Under the pieces are notes generated by a model. It was given only the letters and a program-made list of their open reading frames with translations, ran no database searches and had not been told where the DNA came from. Source: Zeaxanthinibacter enoshimensis (GTDB lineage: Bacteria; Bacteroidota; Bacteroidia; Flavobacteriales; Flavobacteriaceae). From it: DNA of 64,000 nt. The number at the start of each line of letters is the position of its first letter. Within the stretch, counting starts at the first letter, position 1. The stretch covers positions 124,001-188,000 of the forward strand of contig NZ_SNYI01000003.1 of assembly GCF_004362865.1 (NCBI RefSeq). The letters are read 5' to 3'. Below, piece by piece: positions 20,256-49,588 of this stretch. The translations under genes and the position numbers were made by a program.

Positions 20256-20280
20256 GGTTCGCAGTTCGCGGTTCACGGTT
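20256..20280 (+). repeat. Short B-type repeat left of the first S23 gene (block R4)
   Basis: Four 7-mers of type GGTTCGC/AGTTCGC/GGTTCAC. It is inverted relative to the CGCAAAC repeats that follow the S23 gene at 20740, so the gene sits between oppositely oriented repeats. Confidence 0.7.
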
Positions 20281-20340
20281 AATTTTTCCCTGCTTTTTCA
20301 TTGCACTGTAAATCTATATTCTTCATGAAATTTGAATGAT

Positions 20341-20734: not shown

Positions 20735-21118
20735 GTTTTAAACCGCAAACCGCAAACCGCAAACCGCAAACCGCAAACCGCAAACCGCAAACCGCAAACC
20801 TCGAACCATCCTGTGACATAGGTACATAGGTACAGAGTGACATATGGTGACAATGGGGACAATAGTGACATGCTACTAACATCAATCCATACATCCTGAG
20901 TTTAATTAAGCAAACCGCGAACGGCGAACCGCAAACTTGCCTGCCCCTGGCAGGCTGCGAACAGCCGCAGGCGCCCTTCGCCCCTCAAACCTCGAACCTC
21001 AAACCTCGTACTTCCTGCCTCTGGCAGGCCTCAAACTTCAAACCTCAAACCTCGAACCTCAAACCTCGAACTTCCTGCCTCTGGCAGGCCTCAAACCTCA
21101 AACTTCAAACCTCGAACT
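20735..21118 (-). repeat. Composite intergenic repeat, block R5 (reverse orientation)
   Basis: Starts with about eight nearly perfect CGCAAAC 7-mers (20740-20800), then a short A' run, then D' (20815-20866, ACATAGGT and GACAATGGGG units), core C' (20867-20910), B' and a long A' array with two CCTGCCTCTGGCAGG palindromes and one GCCTGCCCCTGGCAGGC. The A' end runs into the coding frame of the exonuclease gene, where it supplies the last seven codons and stop. Confidence 0.85.
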
Positions 21119-22865: not shown

Positions 22866-23735
22866 TCCGTCATACCGTCACACAGTCACACCGTCAAACA
22901 GATTATTACCAGCTCAAATTCCGAACTGCGAACAGCGAACCGCAAACTGCAAACTACATCCTCGAACCTCAAACTTCGAACCTCAAACTATGACGTCATA
23001 CCGAGACACGGTCACGCCGTCAAACAGGTTATTACCAGCTCAAATTCCGAATTGCGAACTGCGGACCGCAAACCGCAAACTACTTCCTCAAACCTCAAAC
23101 TTCGAACCTCAAACTATGACGTCATACCGGGACACGGTCACGCCGTCAAACAGATTATTACCAGCTCAAATTCCGAATTGCGAACTGCGGACCGCAAACC
23201 GCAAACTACTTCCTCAAACTTCAAACTTCGAACCTCAAACTATGACGTCATACCGAGACACGGTCATTCCGTCAAACAATTTTATACCCCAGGCCTCCAT
23301 ACTCCAGTCTGCGAACAGCGAACCTCAAACTGCAAACTACATCCTCAAACCTCAAACTTCGAACCTCAAACTATGACGTCATACCGGGACACGGTCATGC
23401 CGGCAAACAGATTATTACCAGCATTCAAATTCCGAACTGCGAACCGCGAACTGCGAATAGCCGGTGTCGCCCCTCGAACCTCAAGTTATCTAGTTACAAA
23501 GGTACATAGGTACACAGTGACATAGGGTGACAATGGGGACAGAAGGGACAAAGAAATACTTCCAACTGCATACTGCCGACAGGCCATTGGAGGCAAGCTG
23601 CAAACTGCAAACAGCGAACTGCGAACAGCCGAAGGCTCCCCTCGAACCTCAAACTACACCCTCAAACCTCAAATTTACCTGCCGAAGGCAGGCCTCGAAC
23701 CCCCTTCCCTTTCATCGATATTCCATAGCTAATTT
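22866..23735 (+). repeat. Tandem array of about 126-bp units built from 7- and 8-mers (block R6)
   Basis: A unit starting ATGACGTCATACCGRGACAC occurs at 22990, 23116, 23242 and 23373, with a more diverged copy before it (from about 22866). Each unit has 8-mers (ACGGTCACGCCGTCAAAC), a TTATTACCAGCTCAAATTCC spacer, B' 7-mers and A' 7-mers. Unit length is exactly 126 twice, then 131. Copies 2 and 3 are nearly identical. From about 23484 the array changes to D' units and degenerate A'/B' runs, with an ACCTGCCGAAGGCAGGC palindrome near 23680. Confidence 0.9.
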
Positions 23736-39315: not shown

Positions 39316-39655
39316 AGGTACATAGGTACATAGCCCACCCGCCTGCCTGCCAGACCGGACAAAGTCCAGGATGGAATGATGTAGTCGGGCAGGAACGTAC
39401 CGTCCGGTACGGGCGGGTTACAAAGTGACAAAAGGGGTGACAAAGGGGACAAGCTGTTACAAAGTGACAAAGCGGATGACAATGGGGACAATGGGGACAA
39501 GCTGCGAACAAAGTGACAAAGGGGGTGACAAAGGGGACAAGCTGCGAACGACAACACAGGCATCCTGAGTTTAGGTAAACCTTGCAAACTGCGAACAGCA
39601 AACAGCGAACAGCCGAAGGCAGGCCTCAAACTTCAAACCTCGAACCTCGAACTGC
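39316..39655 (-). repeat. Composite intergenic repeat, block R9 (reverse orientation)
   Basis: Begins directly after the fusion-gene stop with GGTACATA units, an approximately 70-nt stretch with ACGTACCGTCCGGTACGGGCGGG in pieces, a long D' array (GTGACAAA, GGGGACAA, GGATGACAATGGGGACAA type), core C' at about 39539-39592 with AGGCATCCTGAGTTTA, then B' and A'. The 125 nt after it carry the promoter of the metalloprotease gene. Confidence 0.85.
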
Positions 39656-46907: not shown

Positions 46908-47067
46908 TTTTTTGGAAATCAAAAGAAAATTTTTTCAATGTAATTTCCTTGCAGTAATACATTTAAGCGAGTAAGTTTTAAGTACAAAGGAAATACATCC
47001 ACCGAAAGCCTTGAGAAAGAAGTTGATTAAGGCTGTTAATAATTACGCCCTGCGTCGTTAATAGTAG

Positions 47068-47209
47068 GGTGGATCCTTATCCACCGTAGCCCTCGGGAGA
47101 GATTTAAAATAAGGCATAAAATAAAAAACCCTCCTGCGCATAAATGGGGATGCGGGTTTGGCTCGGAGTATGGTGGATCGGCATCCACCGTAGCCCTCGG
47201 GAGAGATTT
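47068..47209. repeat. Two copies of a hairpin plus CCGTAGCCCTCGGGAGAGAT element
   Basis: The 25-nt word starting CCACCGTAGCCCTCGGGAG occurs at 47081-47105 and 47185-47209. Each is preceded by a 7-bp hairpin, GGTGGAT-CCTT-ATCCACC (47068-47085) and GGTGGAT-CGGC-ATCCACC (47172-47189). They lie downstream of the tmRNA (minus strand). This repeat is of a different type from the 7-mer family. Confidence 0.75.
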
Positions 47210-47228
47210 TGAATAGGACTTAAAATAA

Positions 47229-47272
47229 AAAAGCCCCCCTTCGCTCTGATTAAAATCAGAGCTTCGGAGGGC
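47229..47272 (-). terminator. Terminator of tmRNA
   Basis: On the minus strand CGCCCTCCGAAGCTCTGATT pairs with the following AATCAGAGCGAAGGGGGGC, then TTTTTT. It starts 3-4 nt after the tmRNA 3' end. Confidence 0.8.
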
Positions 47273-47275
47273 GTA

Positions 47276-47672
47276 GGTGGAGCCGGAGGGATTCGAACCC
47301 TCGTCCAAACAAGCAATAACCATGCTTTCTACATGCTTAGGTCCTGATTGGTTTTCGATGCGCAGCTGACCAGAACCAGCCTACTACGCACTTAGCTTCT
47401 TTAGTTTTGAGGAATTGCCGAAGCTACAATCCCCCTATGTTGACTTTTATGGTGCCCCTGAATGGATCGCCGTCAACAAGGGCTATCCAGGGACATCTCG
47501 CTTCCCTGCCTTGCAGGGACGAGGCTAAATCCTACTATAATTCAGATTAAGCGGCAAGAGCGTAATTATCTTCGCCATTTAAAAAGTGTGAAATATGAGA
47601 TTTACGAGCTGTATCCCAGCGCTCGGCATGCTTACATAACCATTGGTCTTGCTGTCAAAACCAGTCGGCCCC
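47276..47672 (-). ncRNA. ssrA: tmRNA
   Basis: The 5' end GGGGCCGACTGGTTTTGACA (47672 down) and the 3' end with the T-loop GGTTCGAATCCC and CGGCTCCA (47278) fold into the tRNA-like domain; GGGGCCG pairs with CGGCTCC. The resume codon and tag are GGC GAA GAT AAT TAC GCT CTT GCC GCT TAA, giving tag GEDNYALAA after the charged alanine. Length is about 395 nt. CCA is not fully encoded (ACCT), so the last base must be added. Confidence 0.95.
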
Positions 47673-49069: not shown

Positions 49070-49070
49070 G

Positions 49071-49101
49071 GTGACAAGGGGGACAAAGGGGACAAGGTGA
49101 C
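49071..49101 (-). repeat. D'-type repeat left of the second S23 gene (block R10)
   Basis: GTGACAAGGGGGACAAAGGG and GACAAGGTGAC, starting one base after the TGA of the dehydrogenase gene. It is in the inverse orientation to the block at 49549-49588, and the S23 gene lies between. Confidence 0.75.
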
Positions 49102-49105
49102 GGCC

Positions 49106-49462
49106 CTATGAATTGAGTTTATTGCCCAATGAATCTTTCATTTTACGGAATAAATGATTAAGACTGCGAATCTCTTTATTGATGGTCTCTGAATGTAGTA
49201 TGTAACCTAATTCTTTCGAAATGATCAATTGGGTTTCTAATTCTGCCAAAGATCCTGTGGCAATATCCAGGAATCTCAAATATTCTCGCGTTGTACCTCT
49301 TCCGGCTCCTTCGGCAATGTTCGAGGGTATAGAAATAACCGTTTTTCTCAGGTGTTGTATTAGACCATATTTTTCCGATTCCGGAAAAGCCCTGGTTGTT
49401 TGATAAATGACCATCACCAATTCCATACTTTTCTTCCAGATCAGTAGATTTTTGTGGGTCAT
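49106..49462 (-). CDS. Four-helix-bundle protein (S23/23S rRNA IVP, bAvd-like), second copy
   Basis: A 118-residue protein from ATG 49462 (MTHKNLLIWKKSMELVMVIY). Helix markers: LIQHLRKTVISIPSNIAEGAGR and EYLRFLDIATGSLAELETQL, the most conserved parts of the S23 family. It shares the core of the copy at 20341 (IAEGFE versus IAEGAG) but is otherwise diverged. The longer frame to 49534 lacks support. It is flanked on both sides by D-type repeats in opposite orientation, as the first copy is by B-type repeats. Confidence 0.87.
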   Translation of the reverse strand: MTHKNLLIWKKSMELVMVIYQTTRAFPESEKYGLIQHLRKTVISIPSNIAEGAGRGTTREYLRFLDIATGSLAELETQLIISKELGYILHSETINKEIRSLNHLFRKMKDSLGNKLNS

Positions 49463-49548
49463 TGCTATATAACTTAGGAGTACAAATTTAGACAGCCAGG
49501 CTGCAGTTAAAAAGCAGTATCCTATACCTGCCACTGCTAATATTGATT

Positions 49549-49588
49549 TGTCCTTTTATTTGTCCCCTCTGTCCCCTTTGTCACCCCT
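49549..49588 (+). repeat. D-type repeat right of the second S23 gene (block R11)
   Basis: TGTCCTTTTATTTGTCCCCT, then CTGTCCCCTTTGTCACCCCT. It runs through the stop codon of the PHP gene (TCA, 49581-49583 on the plus strand), so the last codons of that gene (VKG, stop) are partly made from the repeat. Confidence 0.75.

Follow-up and report, generated by a model that had tools for sequence, protein, structure and literature searches.

In a 64,000-nt stretch of the Zeaxanthinibacter enoshimensis genome (hereafter the window), we found two genes for small S23 (four helix bundle) proteins, each lying between short tandem repeats in inverted orientation (Table 1). The 118-aa protein encoded near 49 kb scored 111.8 bits against the PF05635 profile (curated cut-off 33.8), which places it in the family, and 105.5 bits against TIGR02436 (cut-off 24); its relatives in the PDB are 2gsc and 2rld. 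The left array, GGTGACAAGGGGGACAAAGGGGACAAGGTGACGG, starts right after the stop codon of the upstream gene (end 49069), and the right array, TTTGTCCCCTCTGTCCCCTTTGTCACCCC, ends near 49588. The initial annotation had described inverted repeats of a unit D on both sides of 49106-49462, and this description is borne out by a repeat search, in which three inverted pairs (I1, I4 and I5) of 79-94% complementarity joined the two arms. The best inverted match covered 24 of 26 positions (score 21), and a score of at least 20 was reached by none of 166 ORFs of 90-160 aa from three other genomes and by 0.2% of mismatched S23 flanks. RNA folding of the 531-nt stretch containing the gene gave a 27-bp terminal stem (-151 kcal/mol, z -4.6); the element thus has a trait of rRNA intervening sequences (IVSs), namely complementary termini that enclose an ORF in a single stem-loop. 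S23 is the sole gene between the arms, and no transposase gene lies inside.

Table 1 Coordinates of S23 genes, their arms and a gene-less array in Z. enoshimensis (window positions unless a contig is given)
Feature	Position	Strand	Details
S23 / four helix bundle gene, 118 aa	49106..49462	-	PF05635 E 2.4e-32; TIGR02436 E 1.7e-30
Arm 3' of the 118-aa S23 gene	49070..49098	.	9-nt units GTGACAAGG GGGACAAAG GGGACAAGG; C-rich on the gene strand
Arm 5' of the 118-aa S23 gene	49557..49588	.	G-rich on the gene strand; complements the 49070..49098 arm
Solo array of the 9-nt unit of the 118-aa element, without S23 gene	39417..39544	.	Tandem Repeats Finder
S23 gene of a different subfamily, 129 aa	20341..20730	+	PF05635 E 7.9e-28
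Upstream arm of the 129-aa S23 gene	20258..20281	.	7-nt units GGTTCGC; 17/18 match to the downstream array
Downstream array of the 129-aa S23 gene	20740..20807	.	AAACCGC units; Tandem Repeats Finder
Third S23 gene of the genome, der site (L001)	C1:1415103		Between CCGTCAC and GGTATGAC arrays

The two S23 proteins of the window were 28% identical. As the initial annotation had pointed out, their genes share one geometry built from different repeat modules (7-nt units at 20256, 9-nt units at the 49-kb gene), and its count of two out of two S23 genes in the window extends to all three in the genome: three genes with three repeat units. D is a local unit; the other S23 genes carry other units. The RNA fold of the 20.3-kb element was weak (z -2.0). 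Elsewhere in the window, a tmRNA gene (47275-47672, reverse strand, Rfam 163 bits) is followed downstream by an imperfect 104-bp tandem duplication (47063-47285).

Four genomes of the genus were included in the comparison. In the sister genome G003, S23 orthologues are present at both window sites, with proteins 55% and 53% identical to those of Z. enoshimensis; both window genes have been inherited vertically with G003. The two G003 genes lie between inverted arms of the units GGGTTACA (L049, with a 38-bp terminal stem, z -5.3) and GGTTTGGAGTTT (L051). Thus, the arm unit differs between orthologues while gene, place and geometry are kept and the arms are still complementary, and five different units occur across the three S23 genes of Z. 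enoshimensis and the two orthologues.

To see how general this arrangement is, we examined a larger set of genomes. In the family, 89 of the 120 genomes had matches to PF05635, and in the phylum 157 of the 198, with 0 to 16 matches per genome. The survey comprised 175 S23 loci, drawn from family and phylum genomes, from the genus and from a set of 80 named loci of many phyla, and the complementarity of the 300 nt upstream to the 300 nt downstream was scored, with a threshold of at least 14. This threshold was reached by 51% of the 175 loci, some of which are related by descent. Among the controls it was reached by 1.2% of mismatched flank pairs (n=1740), by 8.2% of neighbouring ORFs (n=147) and by 1.8% of the 166 similar-sized ORFs, which came from 1.2 Mb of three genomes; with the flanks compared in direct orientation, the figure was 10.9%. 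A score of at least 20 was found for 22% of S23 loci and for none of the similar-sized ORFs. It should be noted that about half of the 175 loci fell below the threshold; since detection of this kind misses degenerate arms, the share of loci with detectable arms is at least 51%, a figure that does not measure universality. Arm-positive loci included, by record name (many of the records being metagenome bins), Clostridia, Planctomycetota, Acidobacteria, Ignavibacteria, Neomarinimicrobiota, candidate-phyla bacteria and a Methanophagales archaeon.

The possibility that S23 genes simply lie in repeat-rich intergenic regions, with an inverted layout that is accidental, has in its favour that the genome of Z. 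enoshimensis is dense in such arrays. An accidental layout is ruled out by the cross-genome controls, in which inverted arms far outnumbered direct ones (51% versus 11%) and own pairs far outnumbered mismatched ones (51% versus 1.2%), and S23 arms were also present in array-poor genomes; we consider this explanation extremely improbable.

Arms were tandem 7-9-mers, with a best period of 7 in 65, 8 in 20 and 9 in three of 90 loci; the period is 9 in the 118-aa element of the window. The median distance was 34 nt from the end of the upstream arm to the start codon and 11 nt from the stop codon to the downstream arm. G exceeded C in the upstream arm at 83 of 89 loci, as compared with about 40% in control regions. 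Moreover, arm sequence is linked to the S23 subfamily: k-mer similarity of the arms increased with S23 protein identity (Mantel r 0.38; partial r 0.34 after removal of flank composition; p 0.0005), and the correlation was absent once one arm was reversed.

A closer view was obtained from one orthologous site in the genus g121 (apparently Flavobacterium, judging from named relatives), which was traced through 61 genomes. Eighteen genomes carried S23 elements of one broad type, four carried another S23 subfamily (type II) with TTTAAAC arms, and one carried a third, very diverged type. Type-II proteins were 27% identical to the type of the 18 genomes and 52% identical to the product of the window's 20.3-kb gene; in different species, the same site is thus occupied by distantly related S23 types. 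In most of the remaining genomes S23 was missing and the spacer was short, in many cases holding inverted arrays without a gene. Such short-repeat arrays at the S23-less site were seen in many species (L298, L300, L325, L327 and L335); possible identities are terminators, remnants of deleted elements and non-autonomous relatives. A decaying S23 copy was present at the site in L324; further decaying or interrupted copies were L050 (G001:C25) and L090 (G004).

Within the 18 elements, own arms matched better than re-paired arms (17.1 versus 11.3, p 5e-5); no own-pair advantage was observed in the four type-II elements. In a 36-pair helix that we chose in alignment A2 of this site, there were 69 double-changed cells, as compared with 45.9 in shuffled alignments, which leave relatedness uncorrected, and 15-23 in slid registers, which retain it. 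The covariation score of this helix was 0.211 versus 0.127, and none of 500 shuffles equalled it. In every 8-nt unit C and AG were constant, the base after C switched between U-A and A-U, doing so jointly in every unit of both arms, and the next three positions paired only about half the time. The positions that stay constant beyond the needs of pairing suggest that something reads the arm sequence.

Concerted change of this kind might also arise neutrally, if slippage made the units and replication template switching (quasi-palindrome correction) kept the arms complementary, S23 being unrelated to them. Such upkeep would account for the way in which all units of both arms change in concert and for the rapid turnover of units between orthologues, but it leaves unexplained why arms occur at S23 genes and not at neighbouring or similar-sized ORFs, and likewise the fixed G-rich polarity, the arm-protein correlation and the constant C and AG. 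We regard it as improbable. Co-variation of the arms, constant positions and correlation between protein and arms, taken together, lead us to infer that S23 probably binds the arms.

Sites without the element were also found within the genus. The der site, occupied in Z. enoshimensis by the third S23 gene, has neither S23 nor such arms in G003 and G001, and at the window site with no S23 in G001 the gap holds other repeats: at L064 (1440-1870 of G001:C78) it is filled by several copies of CCCGTCATTGCGAGGAGCGCTAGCGACGAAGCAATC. The initial annotation had implied that gene and repeats form an insertion-like unit and had suggested a search for empty sites and target duplications. This reading is partly supported: sites without S23 exist (at the der locus, at the window site in G001 and in most of the 61 g121 genomes), and one site carries distantly related S23 types in different species; the pattern named there as contrary, syntenic S23 genes without any repeat and no empty sites, was not encountered. 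Insertion in the strict sense gained no such support: neither target duplication nor precise excision was found at S23 sites, where the empty sites are too diverged for base-exact junctions, and the repeat is no fixed terminal repeat. Recent intragenomic copies, which would have indicated transposition, were sought as well and none was recent; the best paralogue identities inside genomes were 64% and 73%, so that the paralogues are old and recent transposition is not supported. The empty sites and the reuse of one site lead us to think that the elements may be mobile, although precise insertion was seen nowhere.

Copies of the arm units without an S23 gene occur in the genome itself. The 9-nt D unit, as in the array at 39 kb (Table 1), had 104 matches in Z. 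enoshimensis (control 18) in some 20-25 clusters, and did not exceed background in G003, G001 and G002. For the GGTTACA unit, there was enrichment in G003 (72 matches, control 21), a weak presence in G002 (19, control 6) and Z. enoshimensis (13, control 3), and no enrichment in G001. Solo clusters of Z. enoshimensis were mosaics of several units. For most S23 arms of genomes G010 and G187, dispersed copies were absent. We therefore rejected a match between solo arrays and S23 arms as a general rule: it holds in Z. enoshimensis and partly in G003 and fails in G010 and G187, and the link is one within the genus. We also observed intergenic blocks of 7-, 8- and 9-mer units with GC-rich palindromes in recurring order (window 22868-23451, L042, L045 and L035), some of them in duplications whose period was about 126 bp or longer.

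With inverted ends, gene-less inverted arrays at the g121 site and genome-specific solo arrays in view, one might take the arms for terminal inverted repeats on which an enzyme encoded elsewhere acts (RAYT/Y1 or that of an insertion sequence), with S23 as cargo. A Y1/RAYT transposase as mobiliser was rejected on the finding that PF01797 is absent from the near-complete genomes of Z. enoshimensis, G001 and G003; in addition, target duplications were not seen, and the end sequences vary by element and track the S23 protein. Such a passenger role for S23 is accordingly given little credence. In another genome, G187, two Y1 transposase genes (L353 and L354) have long, near-identical inverted flanks (scores 33.5 and 29), which is a RAYT-type case.

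Among known systems, the closest in build are the IVSs of 23S rRNA, which have been known for more than 25 years although neither their origin nor their function is clear (PMC4990558). The IVS of Coxiella burnetii comprises 428 nt in helix 45, with a 28-bp terminal stem cut by RNase III, a loop that holds an S23 ORF, and tandem GACAGAT heptamers just upstream of that ORF (PMC4990558). The elements described here resemble it in length (about 430-530 nt), in the sense S23 ORF in the loop, in complementary termini with a stem of about 28 bp and in upstream tandem heptamers. In contrast with rRNA IVSs, they lie outside rRNA (no S23 gene had an rRNA location in the window or among the 80 named loci), several diverged copies occur per genome, the arm unit is locus-specific and tracks the protein, and archaea and candidate phyla are included. 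By location they are not rRNA IVSs, but they are built like them.

REP/REPIN sequences with their RAYT (TnpA-REP) genes are similar in combining a small gene, inverted short repeats and mostly vertical inheritance (PMC3116915) with dispersed repeats that match the flanks in the same genome, here in Z. enoshimensis and partly in G003. They differ in that an HUH/Y1 transposase is missing from Z. enoshimensis, G001 and G003, that the S23 arms are tandem 7-9-mers rather than REP palindromes and that most S23 arms of G010 and G187 have no dispersed copies. Unlike insertion sequences, the elements have no fixed terminal repeats and no transposase inside. Avd of diversity-generating retroelements belongs to the same four-helix-bundle superfamily and was matched weakly (NF033474, E 2e-5; phrog_3206, E 2e-8), but the S23 protein reached 24.9 bits against the NF033474 cut-off of 80; assignment to a defence or phage family was rejected, with just these weak matches and a chance-level match to Csm5. 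Finally, intergenic TAACTGA heptamer arrays have been described in Beggiatoaceae, cyanobacteria and Bacteroidetes, and a repeat-binding protein of unknown identity has been raised as a possible mobile element (PMC4679880). These are likewise intergenic tandem heptamers in partly the same taxa, although in that study they were not linked to S23. Tandems like TAACTGA/TCAGTTA were seen by S23 genes at 15 loci (a raw count without a chance control), including the flanks of L122, L172, L174, L205, L213, L233 and L243, and resemble the Beggiatoaceae repeats (PMC4679880). Our search, which covered open-access literature, found no description of an arm-S23-arm layout outside rRNA.

What is best supported by the comparisons above is that S23 and its two arms would co-evolve as a single unit, gained and lost in its entirety. 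On balance, and with moderate confidence, we think that the window elements are free-standing, IVS-like stem-loops whose arms are recognised by the S23 protein that they encode. The unit would consist of an arm, the S23 gene and a complementary arm. Both arms are tandem repeats of 7-9 nt, the one before the gene rich in G and the one after it rich in C, and they can pair with the gene in the loop as in the S23-coding IVSs of 23S rRNA. The most likely ligand of the S23 protein, a small four-helix bundle distantly related to Avd, is the arm pair of the element that encodes it, in which case protein, upstream arm and downstream arm would evolve as one set. Arms and gene would come to intergenic sites jointly, through rare insertion or horizontal transfer, and would be lost jointly as well, and in Z. 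enoshimensis the arm units may also have spread as gene-less arrays. Pairing might act in RNA, for processing of the RNase III type or autoregulation, or in DNA.

The strongest alternative is a non-mobile autoregulatory stem, in which S23 is a host gene whose expression or stability is controlled by a long-range stem in its own mRNA, perhaps bound by S23 itself. Vertical inheritance of both window genes with G003, the old paralogues, the position of the arms near start and stop codons with fixed polarity and the strong terminal stems (27 bp and 38 bp) all agree with such a domesticated stem. Against it are the empty sites and the replacement by other S23 types at one site, the patchy copy number (0 to 16 per genome) and a wobble asymmetry that lacks an RNA-level signature: as an indicator of pairing in RNA rather than DNA it was rejected, because pooled counts of 71 versus 121, seemingly significant, became 23 versus 23 per independent locus. 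We therefore hold a purely regulatory stem to be unlikely.

Because the layout recurs across many groups of bacteria and some of archaea, with arms that change together, the S23 family looks like one of free-standing stem-loop elements of the rRNA type. It is possible, although we put this forward tentatively and with some doubt, that S23 proteins serve as dedicated partners to a large class of free-standing bacterial and archaeal stem-loops with a subfamily-specific arm code of 7-9 nt, and that the rRNA IVSs are only the branch that landed in rRNA. S23 proteins are common small proteins of Bacteroidota that have so far been unexplained. Should the unit prove widespread outside rRNA, with arms that co-evolve with the protein, the target of S23, the movement of the elements and the rRNA case as a by-product would become testable, and the elements may be a source of the short intergenic tandem heptamer arrays in some Bacteroidota genomes.
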